Below are positions 53,327 to 59,807 of a stretch of DNA of 64,000 bases, one piece after another. The notes below the pieces were generated by a model that was not told where the DNA came from, did no database searches, and saw nothing but the letters and a program-made list of their open reading frames with translations. A program made the position numbers and the translations under genes. This DNA comes from an uncultured Flavobacteriales bacterium (GTDB lineage Bacteria > Bacteroidota > Bacteroidia > Flavobacteriales_G > Salibacteraceae), in NCBI GenBank assembly GCA_905479105.1, contig CAJQLE010000003.1:434001-498000 (forward strand). The letters are read 5' to 3'. How positions within the stretch are numbered: the stretch's first letter is position 1; the number at the start of each line of letters is the position of its first letter.

Positions 53327-53966
53327 TCCATTTCGGGTAGCTTAATTTAAAGCTTTCGACTCCCAAAGATGCAATGGCAGCTGAATCTCCATTACAGGCG
53401 TTTGTTGAAAATATTACCCCGCTTTCTGACGCTAGGCTTTTGGAAGTTGTGATTGAATAATCAGCCGTGATTACTCCATTCTCCTTTACTTCTTTCACAA
53501 CCCAGTTCACGAGTATTAATTCAATCGTTGACTTGGAAGGCTTGTTTGGGAAATCGATCCTTAGGTTGAAATCATTGAATTGGAAAACACCAATTACTTG
53601 TCCTGAAGATTGACTGCTCGCATAGTTGAAGATCAGTTCAAAAAGCATCGTATCATTGGTGTTAAGCGCTTCTTGAATACTGGGAGTTACACGATAGTTT
53701 CGTTCTGCTTTTTGTCTTTTGCAGCCTGCCGATTCATCCGCATTTAAGCTAAGAATTCCATTTACGAATATAGATCCTGTTGAGTCCAGAGTATAGGCTA
53801 GGTTATCCCAATCATATTTTACCCAGGTATTCGGTACATCAAATTCATCGCTGAAAAGCACTATTTCTTCTCGTGTTTTTTCTGGGTCTTCACGATTGCA
53901 AGCCATGAAAGAAGATGCAGTGGATAAAGCCAAAGCAGAGAAAATTAGTAGATGACTAACCTTCAT
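53316..53966 (-). CDS. Lipoprotein, unknown function
   Basis: A 216-residue lipoprotein (SSFMAC lipobox). The mature protein is beta-rich (LFSDEFDVPNTWVKYDWDNLAYTLDSTGSIFVNG, VIGVFQFNDFNLRIDFPNK), with two cysteines (SAGCKRQK and STNACNGD) that could pair. The jelly-roll-like strand pattern might bind carbohydrate, but no family is recognised. It overlaps the EI24 gene start by 11 nt. Confidence 0.65.
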   Translation of the reverse strand: MKVSHLLIFSALALSTASSFMACNREDPEKTREEIVLFSDEFDVPNTWVKYDWDNLAYTLDSTGSIFVNGILSLNADESAGCKRQKAERNYRVTPSIQEALNTNDTMLFELIFNYASSQSSGQVIGVFQFNDFNLRIDFPNKPSKSTIELILVNWVVKEVKENGVITADYSITTSKSLASESGVIFSTNACNGDSAAIASLGVESFKLSYPKWTIN

Positions 53967-54726
53967 GCTGTAGCTTTTTCGTAATCCGTTCGACTTCTAT
54001 TGTACCAACCACTGTAGCGAAAACAGCAATGAACCCAGAGGTCATAGGTCCGATAAAAGGAATCAAATTCCATAATGCAAATGGCGCGCCTAAGCTCAAT
54101 GAAGAAAATTTATTCTTCCAAACGAAAAGCCTGCTTTGTCTCACGCTTAGTTGTTTGCGTTCAAGCGCATAGTCTACAAAGTTGTAACCATAGAAATAGG
54201 CATTTACACCAAATAAGATGAATGGTGCGGCTAGGCCAATCACTGGAATAAATCCAATTCCAACACAAAGAATAGCTAGAAGCAGTTGGTAGAATCCATT
54301 CGTCAAGGCAAGTCCCGCTGCACGCGTTAGATCACGTATGAATTGAGCAAAGCTAAAATCTACTATTTCATCACCCAATTCCTGTCCAACGCGCTCACTC
54401 AGCCACGTCAATATTGGTGACATCATTAGCAGAATAATGGACCCTCCAATGAAGGCAAATACGAAATACAAGAGAATTCTCAGGATGATCCAGAGCACCC
54501 AATAGACCACACCATTGATGAAGCCAGCCCATTCAGGCAGCCAAGAAGCATCTTTTAAGAGGTCGTTTAAAAGACTTGAAAATATCTCTGTTGCCCAAGC
54601 GGTTAGGGTAAAACCTCCAAAAAAAACGAGGAGGGTGATGATTAACGGAAACCACAAAAACCACGTTAAACCGTGCTTTTTCAAAAAGCGAAAAGAAGAG
54701 AGGTAAGCCTTAAAGGCGCTAAGCAT
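53956..54726 (-). CDS. EI24/CysZ-family membrane protein
   Basis: A 256-residue polytopic membrane protein of the EI24 family, to which the sulfate permease CysZ belongs. Helices and the conserved blocks MSPILTWLSERVGQELG, FIPVIGLAAPFILFGVNAYFYGYNFVDYALER and LGAPFALWNLIPFIGPM are clear. It sits 2 nt downstream of the Crp/Fnr gene of the sulfur cluster, so sulfate or sulfite movement is an attractive but unproven role. Confidence 0.87.
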   Translation of the reverse strand: MLSAFKAYLSSFRFLKKHGLTWFLWFPLIITLLVFFGGFTLTAWATEIFSSLLNDLLKDASWLPEWAGFINGVVYWVLWIILRILLYFVFAFIGGSIILLMMSPILTWLSERVGQELGDEIVDFSFAQFIRDLTRAAGLALTNGFYQLLLAILCVGIGFIPVIGLAAPFILFGVNAYFYGYNFVDYALERKQLSVRQSRLFVWKNKFSSLSLGAPFALWNLIPFIGPMTSGFIAVFATVVGTIEVERITKKLQHEG

Positions 54727-54728
54727 AA

Positions 54729-55382
54729 CTATACGTTTTCAACTAGTGGAGCCATATCAATTTGATTCCTGTGTAAACTAATCATTCCATTTTGCTCCAT
54801 CTTCTTAAGCAAGCGAGATATTACTTCTCGAGAAGTGTTGAGGTCGTTGGCAATTTCTTGATGGGTCGTTTTAATGATGGTTGTTTCTAACGTTCGTGCT
54901 TGATTGATAAGGTAGAACTCCAATCGTTCATCCATCGCTTTAAAAGCAATCGCATCAACCACAGTGAGCATTTCTTCAAATCGAGATCGATAGGTTTCAA
55001 GTACGAAATAATACCATGATTTATGCTCCAGCATTAAGGCATCCATTTTATCAATGGGAACCATAATAGCCTTACTTGGGGTCATAGCTTTGGCCATTAA
55101 TTCTGAAGTTTTTTGCTGAGACGCGCAAACCATGGATAGGGCACATGCATTTCCAGGTTCGATGTAATAGATGAAAAATTCACCTCCATTTTCACCTTCA
55201 CGATAGAGCTTTACAAGTCCTTCAACAATCAACATTGTGGATTTGAAATACTGTCCAGTGCGCATCAACTCTTCTCCTTCTTCAAAGGTTTTAAGTGTTC
55301 CTAGCTCTGCTAACTTATCGGCTAATTGCTCATCAAAAGCAGGGAATTTCTGTTGGAGAAGTGTCTTAATTTCTAAATCCAT
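54729..55382 (-). CDS. Crp/Fnr family transcriptional regulator
   Basis: A 217-residue regulator with a cyclic-nucleotide-binding-like sensor domain (LRTGQYFKSTMLIVEGLVKLYREGENGGEFFIYYIEPGNACALSM) and a C-terminal helix-turn-helix (QEIANDLNTSREVISRLLKKMEQNG). Cysteines near the sensor domain (C84 and C91 area) are not arranged like an Fnr iron-sulfur motif. It has a perfect -7 element (TATATTTG at 55402-55409). Matching Crp-type dyads lie before three units of the adjacent sulfur cluster, so this is their likely regulator. Confidence 0.9.
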   Translation of the reverse strand: MDLEIKTLLQQKFPAFDEQLADKLAELGTLKTFEEGEELMRTGQYFKSTMLIVEGLVKLYREGENGGEFFIYYIEPGNACALSMVCASQQKTSELMAKAMTPSKAIMVPIDKMDALMLEHKSWYYFVLETYRSRFEEMLTVVDAIAFKAMDERLEFYLINQARTLETTIIKTTHQEIANDLNTSREVISRLLKKMEQNGMISLHRNQIDMAPLVENV

Positions 55383-55401: not shown

Positions 55402-55456
55402 CAAATATAACCTTACTTAATTAGACTTTTAACATGAAATCATGACGGAAATTACT
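55402..55456 (-). promoter_or_regulatory. crp/fnr gene promoter with weak upstream dyad
   Basis: The minus-strand -7 TATATTTG is at 55402-55409, 20 nt before the ATG. A degenerate dyad (CATGAC-N4-ATTACT, 55441-55456) is centred 39.5 bp upstream, one helical turn further than in the three sulfur promoters. Confidence 0.45.
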
Positions 55457-56339
55457 ACTTGCTTTTGCGAAAGCCCTGAAATAATTGACCCCAAAAGCTC
55501 GATGGAATTTTTTCCATTTCTGGGAAACCTAGTCGAATCTCTCCATCATCTTTTGGAATGCTCGCTGTTCTGAATAGATAATCCCAAACGCTTAATGTGA
55601 TGCCAAAATTGATGCCGTACCTTCTGTTTTCAGGCAGATTGTAAGCGTGATGCCAAAGATGCATTACAGGATTATTCAAAATGTATTTCAACGGACCATA
55701 TGTCAAATGAATATTAGCATGATTCAAATGTCCAATGGCTATGGCAATGTAGAATACGATATAAGCTTGATCAGGAGTGAAACCTCCTATGAGCATCACT
55801 GCTATATATTTCATAGGTGTGTAGAACACGTTTTCCATCCAGTGGTAGCGCAGGTGAGCGGCAAAGCCCATTTGCTCTACTGAGTGATGCACTTTGTGAA
55901 ATTGCCACAAGAAATCAAAGCGATGAAGCGTGACATGGGTGAACCATTGAATAAAATCAGTGGCGACAAAGAAAATAAGAAGCTGTAGCCACCAATTTAC
56001 CTCTGAGAGGTCAAAGAGTACAAAACGTGAAAGATCTTCTCCTACAATTTCTTTAAAGAACAACTCTGTAACATTCGAAAATGCCATGAAGATGATGATC
56101 TTAAAGATGTAGAAATTGAAGAACATATAGAACGTATCGAGCCAGAAATCTTTTCGGATAATGGCCTGATTTTTACGCCAAGGAAATGCAATCTCTAGTC
56201 CCCAAATCACAAGTGATAACAGGACAAGCCACCAAAAATAATTGACATACCAAGGATCAACTTGAAATGTGATTTCTCTCCAGGTATAGCCTGCGAAATC
56301 AGAAAACGATCTTAAGAAAACGTCAATGTATTGGTTCAT
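55455..56339 (-). CDS. Sterol desaturase / fatty acid hydroxylase family protein
   Basis: A 294-residue integral membrane di-iron oxygenase of the fatty acid hydroxylase superfamily. The histidine clusters are HVTLHRFDFLWQFHKVHH, HLNHANIHLTYG and HLWHHAYN, arranged between membrane helices as the family requires. It probably hydroxylates or desaturates a lipid. It lies 15 nt after the rhodanese lipoprotein in the thioredoxin operon, an unexpected partner for sulfur genes. Confidence 0.9.
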   Translation of the reverse strand: MNQYIDVFLRSFSDFAGYTWREITFQVDPWYVNYFWWLVLLSLVIWGLEIAFPWRKNQAIIRKDFWLDTFYMFFNFYIFKIIIFMAFSNVTELFFKEIVGEDLSRFVLFDLSEVNWWLQLLIFFVATDFIQWFTHVTLHRFDFLWQFHKVHHSVEQMGFAAHLRYHWMENVFYTPMKYIAVMLIGGFTPDQAYIVFYIAIAIGHLNHANIHLTYGPLKYILNNPVMHLWHHAYNLPENRRYGINFGITLSVWDYLFRTASIPKDDGEIRLGFPEMEKIPSSFWGQLFQGFRKSK

Positions 56340-56354
56340 GAATCTGCTGTGCTT

Positions 56355-56729
56355 TTATTTCCAACCGCTGTAGCCGTGCGTTAAGTTAGCTACGCTTTCA
56401 AACCCTTTTTCTTTCATAATGTTTTGGGCAGTTTTACTTCTACCTCCGGCAGCACAGTAAACCAATACTGGCTTGCTTTTATCCAGTGTTTCCAATTCCT
56501 TTTCGAAATTTGGTTTTGAAATGTCCATCTGAACTGCTCCTTCAATAATTCCTTGAGCTACTTCGCCATCCGTTCTTACATCAATGATTTGAAGATCAGC
56601 ATTACTGCTCATCATTTCTTTCGCTTCTTCGTTGCTAACATTAGAGTAGTTACCGTCTGTTGATTGCTGGTTCTGAGCGCCACATGATAATAGTGTAATG
56701 GCCAAAGTGAGGGATAAAAGGTATTTCAT
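56355..56729 (-). CDS. Rhodanese-domain lipoprotein
   Basis: A 124-residue single-domain rhodanese with a lipobox at C16 (TLLSC) and the active-site cysteine C92 in VYCAAGGRSK. DLQIIDVRTDGEVAQGIIEGAVQMD is the standard rhodanese start. Lipid anchoring places sulfur transfer in the periplasm, facing the outer or inner membrane. It is one base downstream of the 76-residue membrane protein gene. Confidence 0.92.
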   Translation of the reverse strand: MKYLLSLTLAITLLSCGAQNQQSTDGNYSNVSNEEAKEMMSSNADLQIIDVRTDGEVAQGIIEGAVQMDISKPNFEKELETLDKSKPVLVYCAAGGRSKTAQNIMKEKGFESVANLTHGYSGWK

Positions 56730-56730
56730 A

Positions 56731-56961
56731 TTATTTGTTTTTTAGTTTGAGAATTAAAGATAGAATTAATAGCAGCCATGGCGCACCATGCATCAGTGTG
56801 TCGAACCAGTCGATACTTCCCATGCCAACCGCACCTCCGGCAATCCATTTGAGTTTGCCCCAAATATGTGGCTCAGGAAAGAAAGGCGCTAGGCCTAATG
56901 ATAATGAGGCTAATGCCCAAATCTTGGTGTTTGATTCGATGTAGTGAAGAAACTTATTCAT
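56731..56961 (-). CDS. Small two-helix membrane protein of the sulfur cluster
   Basis: A 76-residue protein with membrane segments ALASLSLGLAPFF and PWLLLILSLILKLKNK around a Gly/Trp-rich loop (IWGKLKWIAGGAVGMGSIDWFDTLMHG). It starts on the last base of the thioredoxin stop codon and ends one base before the rhodanese start, so all three are tightly coupled. I do not know its biochemical role; a sulfur-compound channel part or anchor is conceivable. Confidence 0.8.
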   Translation of the reverse strand: MNKFLHYIESNTKIWALASLSLGLAPFFPEPHIWGKLKWIAGGAVGMGSIDWFDTLMHGAPWLLLILSLILKLKNK

Positions 56962-57275
56962 TATTCTATTCCGTCAATTACTTGTTTCAATTGGGCGGCA
57001 CTTAACACTCCCGATTGTCTCCATTTGATTTGGCCGTTTTTGAAAATTATCAAAGTAGGCACGCCTCTAATTTGAAACGTATTGGACGCCATAGGGTTTT
57101 TGTCAACGTCAATTTTAATGACGTGCACATCATCACCTGTCATGGCAGTGAGTTCTTTTAAGATCGGCTGCATCATTTTGCAAGGGCCACACCATTCAGC
57201 AAAAAAATCAACCAGGACTGTCTTTCCCGAGTTTACAATTTCACTAAATGTTTCTCTCTTTTCTATCGTTTCCAT
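56961..57275 (-). CDS. Thioredoxin
   Basis: A 104-residue cytoplasmic thioredoxin with the active site WCGPCK (C29 and C32), the cis-proline loop RGVPTLIIF and the usual Asp-Lys pair (KIDVDKNP). It leads a four-gene unit with the small membrane protein, rhodanese and hydroxylase genes. A Crp-type dyad and a -7-like element lie at 57308-57352. It probably reduces persulfides generated in the same pathway. Confidence 0.93.
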   Translation of the reverse strand: METIEKRETFSEIVNSGKTVLVDFFAEWCGPCKMMQPILKELTAMTGDDVHVIKIDVDKNPMASNTFQIRGVPTLIIFKNGQIKWRQSGVLSAAQLKQVIDGIE

Positions 57276-57307: not shown

Positions 57308-57352
57308 CAAAGGAACGAATGTCAATTGGCCAGCGCAGTAACTCTTGTCACA
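57308..57352 (-). promoter_or_regulatory. Candidate Crp/Fnr-activated promoter of the thioredoxin operon
   Basis: The minus-strand -7-like element TTCCTTTG is at 57308-57315. The dyad TGTGAC-AAGA-GTTACT is at 57337-57352, centred 29.5 bp upstream of the -7 edge, identical spacing to the two other units of this cluster. Confidence 0.65.
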
Positions 57353-57362
57353 GAGATTAAAT

Positions 57363-57394
57363 AAAAAAACCGAGGCGATAAACTCGCCTCGGTT
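57363..57394 (-). terminator. Terminator of the MBL-rhodanese gene
   Basis: A perfect 11-bp stem (AACCGAGGCGA and TCGCCTCGGTT) with a 5-nt loop is followed by seven Ts on the minus strand. A second hairpin (CTCCGC/GCGGAG, 57402-57420) lies upstream in the same 3' UTR. Confidence 0.92.
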
Positions 57395-57452
57395 CCAACC
57401 ACTCCGCCTACCAAGCGGAGCCTACACCAATCAAAACTTAAACCACCAGTGG

Positions 57453-58865
57453 TTATAACATGGTTGTTTGCTCATGGAACGCACTTACGGGTGCGTTATC
57501 TAAAACTTTCATTGCATTGAATCCGCCTAACACGTTCGATACATCCTTTACTCCATATTTTTTCATAATAGAAGCTGCTGCTACCGAACGGTATCCGCCA
57601 GCACAATGCACCGTGTATGCTTTGTCTTTATTCAATTGTCCTAAGCTCTTATAGATAAAGTCGAGTGGGAAATTCTCTGCACCTTCTAAATGCTGCGATT
57701 CAAATTCGCTTTGCTTTCTAACATCCAACACTTCTAAACCTTGCGTTTTGTATGTTTCAATGAACTCGCGCGGCTCGTAATTATTGATGTTGTCTAGTGC
57801 GCTGCCATCAGCAACCCAAGCCTCAATGCCGCCTTTCAAGAATCCAACTGGATTGTCATAACCTACACGTGCCATTCTTGTAATCACTTCTTCTTCGCGT
57901 CCTTCATCGGCAATCATCAAAATAGGAGCATCTAAATCTTCGATTAACACACCCATCCAAGGAGCGAAATTGTCGTCAATGCCAATGAATATCGATTGAG
58001 GAATAAATCCAGCTGTAAACTTTGAATAATGGCGCGTATCAATGATGATGGTGCCTTCTTTTTGCATCTCTGCTTTAAAGTCTACAATACTCAGGAAGTT
58101 GAGTCCTTGGCTCATCACATCATCAAAACTGGTGTATCCCATTTTGTTCATTACCGCATTTTTTGGAAAATACTGTGGTGGTGCTACCAAACCAGTTGTT
58201 ACTTCTTTGATGAACTCTTCTTTGGTCATGTCGGCTCTCAGTGCATAATTCGTAGCCTTTTGATTTCCGAGCGTGTCAAACGTTTCTTTGCTCATGTTTT
58301 TACCACATGCGCTTCCTTGTCCGTGCCCAGGATAAACGATTACATCATTCGGCAAAGGCATGATTTTATTGCGAAGTGATTCGAATAGGTGCCCTGCTAA
58401 GTCTTCTTGGGTTAAGTGAGTCTTTACAGCCAAGTCAGGTCGGCCTACGTCACCAATAAAAAGGGTGTCGCCAGAGTAAATACTGTGCGGCTTGTTGTTT
58501 TCGTCCAACACCAAGAAAGTGGAAGATTCCATCGTGTGTCCTGGCGTGTGAAGTACTTTGATTTTAATATTTCCAAGGCTCAACTCTTCACCATCTTCAG
58601 CTATGTAAGCATCGAAATTCGCAACCGCTGTTGGTCCATACACAATTTTGGCTCCGGTCTTCTTCGCTAGGTCCAAATGACCGGAAACAAAATCAGCATG
58701 AAAATGCGTCTCGAGTACATATTTGATTTTGGCTCCGCGTTTTTCTGCCATCGCAATGTAAGGCTCCACTTCTCTTAGTGGATCTACAATAGCTGCTTCG
58801 CCATTTGATTCGATGTAATAGGCCGCTTCGGCTAAACATCCTGTGTAGATCTGTTCTATTTCCAT
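57453..58865 (-). CDS. MBL-fold hydrolase with two rhodanese domains (persulfide dioxygenase-like)
   Basis: A 470-residue fusion. The N-terminal metallo-beta-lactamase fold (residues about 1-240) has ETHFHADFVSGH, that is H54, H56 and D58 with F59 where most MBL enzymes have histidine, plus HTPGHTMESS and YPGHGQGSACGK. This is the pattern of ETHE1/Blh-type persulfide dioxygenases that oxidise glutathione persulfide to sulfite. Two rhodanese domains follow; the first lacks its cysteine (MIADEGREEE), the second has C421 in VHCAGGYRS. Export by the TauE-like neighbour fits sulfite as product. Confidence 0.9.
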   Translation of the reverse strand: MEIEQIYTGCLAEAAYYIESNGEAAIVDPLREVEPYIAMAEKRGAKIKYVLETHFHADFVSGHLDLAKKTGAKIVYGPTAVANFDAYIAEDGEELSLGNIKIKVLHTPGHTMESSTFLVLDENNKPHSIYSGDTLFIGDVGRPDLAVKTHLTQEDLAGHLFESLRNKIMPLPNDVIVYPGHGQGSACGKNMSKETFDTLGNQKATNYALRADMTKEEFIKEVTTGLVAPPQYFPKNAVMNKMGYTSFDDVMSQGLNFLSIVDFKAEMQKEGTIIIDTRHYSKFTAGFIPQSIFIGIDDNFAPWMGVLIEDLDAPILMIADEGREEEVITRMARVGYDNPVGFLKGGIEAWVADGSALDNINNYEPREFIETYKTQGLEVLDVRKQSEFESQHLEGAENFPLDFIYKSLGQLNKDKAYTVHCAGGYRSVAAASIMKKYGVKDVSNVLGGFNAMKVLDNAPVSAFHEQTTML

Positions 58866-58893
58866 TTATTGTTGATTTTTATTTTAACAGCAA

Positions 58894-58938
58894 CAAAGGT
58901 GAACAGAAGCAATGGGGAATACAGTGACTTGTGTTACA
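58894..58938 (-). promoter_or_regulatory. Candidate Crp/Fnr-activated promoter of the MBL-rhodanese gene
   Basis: The minus-strand -7-like element CACCTTTG is at 58894-58901. The dyad AGTGAC-TTGT-GTTACA (plus-strand reading) is at 58923-58938, centred 29.5 bp upstream. Confidence 0.7.
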
Positions 58939-58956
58939 CTGAAAAAATGATATTGG

Positions 58957-59757
58957 TCAGATCAATTCTTTAAGAAGTATAAATGCACCCATCACTAGCA
59001 CAAACCAACCAAAGCCTACTTTCAATTTTTGACCGTCTATTTTGGTAGCCAAGAAGCTTCCGATGAAGATGCCAATAACAGCCATGCCGGTGAAGGCAAG
59101 TAAAAATTGCCAGTCAATAACATAGTTTGACATATCGCCTGTAAATCCGACCAATGATTTCACTGCTATGATGATGAGTGAAGTGCCGATGGCGCGTTTC
59201 ATTTCTAGGCCAGCAAAAAGCACTAAAGCAGGGATGATTAAAAATCCACCGCCAGCGCCTACAAGTCCAGTTAGTGTGCCAACAACCGCGCCTTCAATCA
59301 GCACGATCAGCATCGTTTGCCATGGTTTTATGGATTTGTGTTCTTCCGCAGTTTTCTCTTTTTTCTTTTTGATCATGCCTACCGATGCTACTAGCATAAG
59401 GATGGCAAAAAGCACCATTAAGAACATGCCTTTCGTCATGGTGAATTCAGCAACAGAGAAAATGTTCTCAGGAATCGCAGGCACGATGAATTTTCGAGTG
59501 ACAAAAACGGCTATCAAACTAGGTAGACCAAAAGCCAGTGCGGTTTTATAATCAACCAATCCTTTTCGAGCATAATTGATCACACCAACTAAACTTGATC
59601 CGCCAACAATAAATAGGGAATAGGCAGTCGACATCACGGGTGAAATGCCCAATAAATAAACCAAAATAGGAACGGTTAGTATAGAGCCACCTCCTCCGAT
59701 CAGGCCAAGAGATATGCCTATTATAATGGCAGCTGCGTATCCAAGTATTTCAATCAT
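58957..59757 (-). CDS. Sulfite exporter TauE/SafE family protein
   Basis: A 266-residue polytopic membrane protein. The TauE/SafE repeats are visible as IGISLGLIGGGGSILTVPILVYLLG and its duplicate VGTLTGLVGAGGGFLIIPALVLFAG, with a central IDWQFLLAFTGMAVIGIFIGSFLA. The family exports sulfite or organosulfonates. It stands next to a persulfide-oxidising enzyme and shares its promoter architecture. The ATG lies at the predicted transcription start, so the message may be leaderless. Confidence 0.92.
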   Translation of the reverse strand: MIEILGYAAAIIIGISLGLIGGGGSILTVPILVYLLGISPVMSTAYSLFIVGGSSLVGVINYARKGLVDYKTALAFGLPSLIAVFVTRKFIVPAIPENIFSVAEFTMTKGMFLMVLFAILMLVASVGMIKKKKEKTAEEHKSIKPWQTMLIVLIEGAVVGTLTGLVGAGGGFLIIPALVLFAGLEMKRAIGTSLIIIAVKSLVGFTGDMSNYVIDWQFLLAFTGMAVIGIFIGSFLATKIDGQKLKVGFGWFVLVMGAFILLKELI

Positions 59758-59762
59758 GGGAG

Positions 59763-59807
59763 CAAAGGTGAACTTTCATTTTATATCGAAGTGTGACTTT
59801 GGTTGCA
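59763..59807 (-). promoter_or_regulatory. Candidate Crp/Fnr-activated promoter of the TauE/SafE gene
   Basis: The minus-strand -7-like element CACCTTTG is at 59763-59770. The dyad TGTGAC-TTTG-GTTGCA (plus-strand reading) is at 59792-59807, centred 29.5 bp upstream. It shares the stretch GTGACTT with the MBL promoter. Confidence 0.7.

Follow-up and report, generated by a model that had tools for sequence, protein, structure and literature searches.

Are the sulfur genes that lie side by side in one uncultured Flavobacteriales bacterium switched on together, and is the protein that does so encoded among them? The question is raised by a window of 64,000 nucleotides (assembly GCA_905479105.1, contig CAJQLE010000003.1, positions 434,001 to 498,000; Salibacteraceae), in which three promoters of a sulfur gene cluster each carry a Crp/Fnr-type dyad upstream of a Bacteroidota −7 element. 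One promoter serves a thioredoxin operon, one a gene for a protein with metallo-β-lactamase (MBL) and rhodanese domains, and one a TauE/SafE-family gene; the cluster also encodes a Crp/Fnr-family regulator. We computed the sites, their fixed distance to the −7 element, their conservation, the classes of gene behind them and their linkage to the regulator gene. We consider it likely, with good confidence, that the cluster Crp/Fnr regulator uses the three dyads as its operators and is a Bacteroidota-wide class II activator of sulfane-sulfur genes.

Dyads and −7 elements of the three promoters

The dyads were found where the first-pass annotation had put them. Read on the minus strand, in gene orientation, dyad 1 (TGTGACAAGAGTTACT; 57337–57352) lies 5′ of the thioredoxin operon, dyad 2 (TGTAACACAAGTCACT; 58923–58938) 5′ of the MBL-rhodanese gene and dyad 3 (TGCAACCAAAGTCACA; 59792–59807) 5′ of the TauE/SafE gene. 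Each is one mismatch from TGTGACNNNNGTTACA. The −7 elements, also on the minus strand, are TTCCTTTG for the thioredoxin operon (57308–57315; predicted start 57303, leader ~28 nt) and CACCTTTG for both the MBL-rhodanese gene (58894–58901; predicted start 58889, leader ~24 nt) and the TauE/SafE gene (59763–59770; predicted start 59758, one base 5′ of the ATG, near-leaderless). The gap between dyad and octamer is 21 bp at all three promoters, and the claimed distance of 29.5 bp from dyad centre to octamer 5′ edge is exact. The consensus first proposed, TGTGAC-N4-GTTACA, combines both strands: site 1 fits it best on the gene strand, the other two sites on the opposite one. Read consistently with the genes, the dyads take the form TGTRAC-N4-GTYACA.

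According to PMC9723704, the TAnnTTTG box of Flavobacterium psychrophilum sigma-A spans −12 to −5. Because of this box position and the 29.5 bp distance to the octamer, the dyad centres are predicted at −41.5, which agrees with the class II placement made earlier. The promoters have the operator position and the fixed spacing to the core promoter of the class II type, with starts predicted from F. psychrophilum. No conserved −33 element was visible in the 21-bp spacer. Dyad 1 recurs as an identical site in two related genomes (G011 and G014) and as TGTGACTTCTGTTACT in a third (G017). In five genus-group TauE promoters (L061, L062, L068, L069 and the window) the octamer lies 4–6 nt from the ATG. 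The MBL-rhodanese promoters of L063 and L069 carry, by eye, a weaker second dyad just 5′ of the class II dyad, a tandem as in class I + II promoters.

At ≤3 mismatches the dyad alone showed no enrichment in the window (44 seen, 45.2 expected). At ≤1 mismatch there were three, where 300 shuffles averaged 0.2 (maximum 2), and the dyad followed by N21 and TTTG (TGTRAC form, ≤1 mismatch) occurred three times against a mean of 0.007, with one match in 2 of 300 shuffles and never more. The latter test is post hoc, its pattern having been taken from these sites; other sequences, namely the own and family genomes, orthologous promoters and Crp-chosen loci, served for further tests. The own genome (2.79 Mb) held four matches to this combined pattern, three of them the cluster, and none to a reversed control. 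The pattern of the first-pass annotation at ≤3 mismatches was at background level there (31 against 42 in the control). Across 35 family genomes 79 matches were found against 22 in the control, and across 13 genomes of the same genus (own included) 33 against 5.

The fourth site of the own genome (C1:541284; L033 1501–1545) lies 5′ of a 69-aa YgaP-like membrane protein (PF11127), followed downstream by an ArsR-family regulator and an arsenite methyltransferase (ArsM). A class II dyad stands at the equivalent position in G011 and G014. The site at C4:659358, 5′ of a hydroxybutyryl-CoA dehydrogenase-like gene (named by eye), has no sulfur link and was set aside as possible chance. Some MBL-rhodanese paralogues fall outside the regulon, since the second such gene of the own genome (C3:227926; L247, G000:C3:226000–231000; 58% identical) has no upstream dyad.

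Conservation across the Bacteroidota

Conservation was followed in 108 sequences (1.79 Mb), made up of 30 stretches around Crp and 80 loci around MBL-rhodanese relatives, less three duplicates, plus the window. L091–L093 were the duplicates dropped, as they share contigs with L062, L063 and L069; the near-duplicates L128/L134 and L143/L159 were retained. These sequences held 368 dyads within one mismatch of TGTRAYNNNNRTYACA, including 60 exact ones; six altered or scrambled dyad patterns gave 26–137, of which 0–4 were exact. TTTG followed the 368 dyads 97 times at an offset of 21 and 8 times at 22, with 0–8 at each remaining offset between 0 and 44. The full octamer TANNTTTG followed 46 times at 21, 5 times at 22 and 0–2 times elsewhere. 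We term the 105 sites at offsets 21 (97) and 22 (8) class II sites. They are spread over 62 of the 108 sequences; Crp-chosen stretches account for 28 sites, MBL-rhodanese-chosen loci for 74 and the window for 3.

The next gene after a class II site encodes MBL-rhodanese in 41 cases, TauE in 18, rhodanese in 13, thioredoxin in 5, the 76-aa family of the cluster in 3 and another protein in 25. This share of sulfur genes is inflated, with MBL-rhodanese favoured in particular, and speaks less strongly for a sulfur regulon, because the loci were selected around MBL-rhodanese or Crp. A Pfam scan covered 17 of the 25 targets outside the five cluster families. It placed SulP (L082, L116, L144), YeeE-like sulfur transport (L095, L113) and YgaP-like proteins (L097, L107) behind class II sites, together with a DUF255 thioredoxin (L114), an HMA protein (L151) and an outer-membrane efflux protein (L168). 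A pyridine nucleotide-disulphide oxidoreductase (L123) was named thioredoxin reductase (TrxB) by NCBIfam, and for two nucleotidase-fold proteins (L107, L143) the best NCBIfam model was SoxB, below its cut-off. Four of the 17 scanned genes had no Pfam match (L127, L160, L166 and one in L168).

Orthologous promoters were compared at offset 21 and ≤2 mismatches unless stated, separately inside and outside a genus group of 13 loci (L061–L072 and the window, including L069 from a neighbouring genus). A site was present upstream of MBL-rhodanese genes in 9/9 cases inside and 38/94 outside, and upstream of TauE genes in 11/12 and 18/28, compared with 18/968 control open reading frames (ORFs). The first-pass annotation had staked its case on enrichment upstream of orthologous sulfur genes in relatives; run as a test outside the genus group, this enrichment was obtained. 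Sites also preceded thioredoxin (5/8 inside, 1/11 outside), rhodanese (0/12, 4/8), the 76-aa family (0/9, 3/6) and fatty-acid hydroxylase genes (0/9, 1/7); none preceded EI24 in 12 genus-group cases, there being no cases outside. At ≤1 mismatch the counts were 9/9 and 27/94 for MBL-rhodanese, 5/12 and 13/28 for TauE and 12/968 for controls. When the offset was slid from 14 to 29 outside the genus group, MBL-rhodanese gave 38 sites at 21, 5 at 22 and 0–2 elsewhere, and TauE 18 at 21 and 0 elsewhere.

The regulator and its signal

Linkage to the regulator gene was examined in 18 loci outside the genus group chosen by Crp alone. All eight class II sites in them fall into the 85.6 kb that lie no further than 2.5 kb from Crp, and none into the remaining 235 kb, for which (85,632/320,975)^8 = 2.6e-5. 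The link persists when the neighbouring genes differ, because the eight sites precede TauE (5), SulP (1) or 76-aa family (2) genes. Of a further 30 Crp-centred loci (~3.6 kb, some from genomes already sampled), 12 held one or more class II sites (offset 21 or 22; 16 sites in total). In one of these loci (L287) the site lies 5′ of the regulator itself. Autoregulation as a rule was ruled out, with no class II site at any of 61 regulator promoters (0/13 in the genus group and 0/48 outside); the regulator of the window has the −7 element TATATTTG without a class II dyad.

The regulator (217 aa; 54729–55382, minus strand) is our proposed activator. It combines a cNMP-binding-like domain with a Crp-type helix-turn-helix (HTH) and belongs to the Crp/Fnr family by PF00027, PF13545 and PF00325, all above cut-off. 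Its recognition helix is SREVISRLL, of which the R-E-x3-R residues correspond to the DNA contacts of CRP. Helix and site vary together in part: A occupies the contacted position in both dyad halves at 0/53 sites beside SRE regulators and at 8/11 beside SRV regulators. This covariation fits the classical specificity result reported for Glu181 of Escherichia coli CRP.

We infer binding by this regulator, activation and the signal from the arrangement as follows. A regulator dimer would bind the dyad centred at −41.5, adjoining the TAnnTTTG-type −7 element of the Bacteroidota primary sigma factor, contact the polymerase and activate in class II fashion, with the dyad taking the place of a −33 element. 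The regulon would serve persulfide oxidation and sulfur transfer through the CstB-like MBL-rhodanese and the rhodanese, sulfur anion export or import through TauE and elsewhere SulP and YeeE-like proteins, and thiol reduction through thioredoxin and elsewhere TrxB.

The effector is unlikely to be cyclic AMP (cAMP), because a Cys-x5-Cys loop occupies the position of the cAMP-binding loop of CRP. The protein scored 51 bits against a cut-off of 266 for the cAMP-responsive CRP equivalog NF008732, and its loop, ACALSMVCASQQKTS, lacks the E...RS residues of CRP. Cys80 is present in 60/60 and Cys86 in 56/60 aligned regulators, with a further Cys at 87 in 25/60. Among nine paralogues, all have the first Cys and none has a Cys at +6. 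The nearest solved sequence, 3dv8 (E 2.9e-16), is a Crp/Fnr protein from outside the regulator group with Cys at both positions. In a HMMER alignment to NtcA (2xgx), Cys80 aligns with an NtcA loop, which we take to be the one binding 2-oxoglutarate. Sulfane sulfur, sensed through Cys80-x5-Cys86 in the effector loop, is the most likely signal, a reading based on the cysteine pair and the gene content of the regulon. More tentatively, at a chance that we place a little short of even, the protein may represent an undescribed class of Crp/Fnr sulfane-sulfur sensor, a counterpart of CstR, BigR and FisR. Cys80-x5-Cys86 would have taken the place of the loop for cyclic nucleotides, and with the pair bridged by (poly)sulfide the dimer would activate persulfide-detoxification genes in class II fashion throughout the Bacteroidota.

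The same class II binding by the cluster Crp/Fnr protein could instead answer to oxygen, nitric oxide or haem, general redox state or another ligand, with the sulfur genes forming part of a respiratory or redox regulon. We regard this as possible, at a chance clearly below even. FNR, DNR and other Crp/Fnr members sense O2 and NO, and the site is also borne by TrxB, by an outer-membrane efflux gene and by genes that match no Pfam family. Cys80 is common to all nine paralogues, and the equally spaced pair in 3dv8 means that the motif may not be sulfur-specific, a point to be set against a sulfane-sulfur sensor. The second Cys, however, is the one that the paralogues lack. Moreover, relatives of the five cluster families stand behind 80 of the 105 class II sites (the loci having been chosen around two of them), and SulP, YeeE-like, YgaP-like or SoxB-like genes stand behind several of the remaining 25.

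Several results weigh against direct control by the cluster regulator. No site at ≤1 mismatch was found in 10 of the 18 Crp-chosen loci, and the regulator's own promoter is bare in all 61 cases counted above. The covariation is weakened by a single origin of the E/V helix switch on the tree, by a retained G half at 3/11 SRV sites (L087, L164, L168) and by the genus-group origin of 23/53 SRE sites. Co-occurrence was measured in 47 of the 77 loci L094–L170 (L118 and L162 not included): a site 5′ of MBL-rhodanese or TauE was present in 17/36 genomes with a Crp match and 3/11 without at ≤2 mismatches (p 0.31), and in 14/36 and 3/11 at ≤1 mismatch (p 0.72). Paralogues in other genomes bear similar recognition helices, leaving the assignment ambiguous there, and the own genome contains further Crp/Fnr-like fragments. 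The assignment to the Crp/Fnr protein in the first-pass annotation is favoured by linkage, a CRP-type helix and partial helix–site covariation, and finds no support in genome-level co-occurrence.

These results leave some room for other Crp/Fnr paralogues as the proteins that bind the dyads, the cluster Crp being a neighbour without direct control, which we judge unlikely. R-E-x3-R or R-V-x3-R helices occur in paralogues of other genomes, some with dyads nearby, and three genomes (those of L103, L160 and L166) carry sites with no Crp match at 1e-15, in addition to the non-significant co-occurrence. In the own genome, however, the two other HTH regions (L171, L185) lack R-E-x3-R, and a third locus (L187) is an interrupted frame in which the HTH was not read. 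All eight sites in the Crp-chosen loci also lie beside Crp, even in stretches that lack MBL-rhodanese (L084, L088).

The own genome gave one match to the regulator protein at 1e-3. HTH_Crp_2 scored above cut-off in two places, the second being a 113-aa ORF without sensor domain and with the helix Y-E-T-V-I-R. The cNMP-binding domain scored above cut-off in four: the cluster gene, a long transporter-like frame, a 187-aa ORF (helix without R-E) and a frame with one internal TGA. A 113-aa Crp/Fnr-like HTH ORF (L171 1480–1821) lies near cryptochrome-like and SulP-like genes (named by eye). In genus g14, G032 and G034 have both the regulator and the MBL-rhodanese dyad (2 mismatches, offset 22); G031 (98% complete; L210) has no Crp match at 1e-15 and its homologous MBL-rhodanese dyad is half-decayed. 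Strong class II dyads stand beside Crp/Fnr paralogues at G025:C11:5505–5549 (L239) and G004:C263:2657–2701 (L221), and paralogues may use the same architecture.

The −7 elements had been described as weakened in a way that fits activator-dependent promoters, and this holds for one lineage. Octamers were counted within 70 nt upstream of long ORFs in the genus group, where all 143 comprise 40 with a TA start and 21 with a CA start. Octamers with a dyad start with TA in 0/21 cases and CA in 17/21, compared with 40/122 and 4/122 for those without (Fisher 0.001 for TA and 7e-15 for CA, from orthologous promoters that are not independent). The dyad promoters of the genus group are largely orthologous and amount to few independent cases. 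A weak −7 element is a trait of this lineage and not of the regulon, because 46/74 class II octamers outside the genus group are TANNTTTG, with TA kept; as a trait of the whole regulon it was ruled out. The genus-group −7 element has drifted from TA to CA, a change of the core promoter across the whole lineage at an activator site, which would fit dependence on an activator.

The regulator might alternatively repress these promoters, its dimer beside the −7 element occluding the polymerase, as CstR and BigR are persulfide-responsive repressors; this we consider very unlikely. Phase-locked spacing at −41.5 is a signature of class II activation, and repressor operators usually vary in position. 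Here the −41.5 spacing is held exactly, the spacer has no conserved −33 element and the −7 element of the genus group is weak. Chance likeness among the promoters of one cluster is a negligible prospect, since the sites are conserved at one offset over the phylum and linked to Crp, even though at ≤3 mismatches the dyad in the window and the combined pattern in the genome are at chance or control level and the first pattern was picked after the sites were seen.

Cluster genes and known systems

The cluster runs on the minus strand from 59757 to 53956 in the order TauE/SafE, MBL-rhodanese, thioredoxin, 76-aa protein, rhodanese, fatty-acid hydroxylase (FA_hydroxylase), Crp/Fnr and EI24. The first gene encodes a predicted TauE/SafE-family sulfur anion exporter (58957–59757; PF01925). 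The second (57453–58865) encodes a 470-aa protein with MBL and two rhodanese domains by Pfam, aligned by 3r2u to residues 3–451 and by 3tp9 to residues 3–453; 3r2u we take to be staphylococcal CstB. By these domains the protein is a predicted CstB-like persulfide dioxygenase-sulfurtransferase, and it is 94% identical to that of a Salibacteraceae metagenome-assembled genome. The thioredoxin gene (56961–57275; TIGR01068 above cut-off) is the first of the operon behind dyad 1, followed by the 76-aa protein (56731–56961; no Pfam match, conserved with the cluster) and a single-domain rhodanese (56355–56729; PF00581) with, by eye, a lipoprotein-like N-terminus. The co-directional fatty-acid hydroxylase/sterol desaturase family gene (55455–56339; PF04116) precedes the regulator gene. 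A co-directional EI24/CysZ-family membrane protein gene (53956–54726; PF07264 above cut-off, CysZ equivalog below its cut-off) adjoins crp.

Class II promoters of E. coli CRP resemble those of the cluster in a TGTGA-N6-TCACA-like dyad centred at −41.5 and in the R-E-x3-R helix. The cluster promoters differ in using the Bacteroidota −7 element TAnnTTTG rather than a −10 element and in serving a sulfur regulon, and the cluster regulator differs in the Cys-x5-Cys loop at the site of the cAMP-binding loop. The Staphylococcus aureus cst operon (CstR, CstB and TauE) likewise brings together, at a single locus, an MBL-rhodanese of this domain order, TauE and a dedicated regulator. Its regulator CstR is a repressor of the CsoR family, whereas the cluster regulator is of the Crp/Fnr family and in activator position. 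BigR belongs to the ArsR family and FisR is sigma54-dependent. PMC7315123 describes FisR and BigR of Acinetobacter baumannii as dedicated regulators of persulfide dioxygenase genes, BigR acting on a yeeE-yedE-pdo2 operon, and also reports a persulfidated Crp-like protein. The cluster regulator would share this role as predicted and differs from both in belonging to the Crp/Fnr family. With 3dv8, named only by family, it shares both Cys positions and the R-E-V helix; we know of no sulfur context for 3dv8.

To our knowledge the characterised persulfide sensors are of the CsoR, ArsR or sigma54-dependent type. Neither class II activation by Crp/Fnr proteins nor a persulfide regulon is new by itself. 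No description of a Bacteroidota Crp/Fnr persulfide regulon was found in the open-access papers searched, most subscription journals lying outside the search. The phylum-wide, position-locked combination with a Cys-x5-Cys regulator is probably an undescribed shared switch for reactive sulfur. Bacteroidota use their own sigma factor and promoter, so that regulation transfers poorly from model bacteria. The conserved architecture, with its predicted regulator and regulon, suggests that Bacteroidota control persulfide chemistry through a Crp/Fnr-family activator and can be tested in cultured Pontibacter, Fulvivirga and Niastella.

Two further features of the cluster genes were seen in relatives. 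The thioredoxin gene of G014 (L062 7400–7712) is spread over two open frames in that assembly. In L084 and L088, relatives of the 76-aa protein adjoin a Crp gene and come with a class II dyad.

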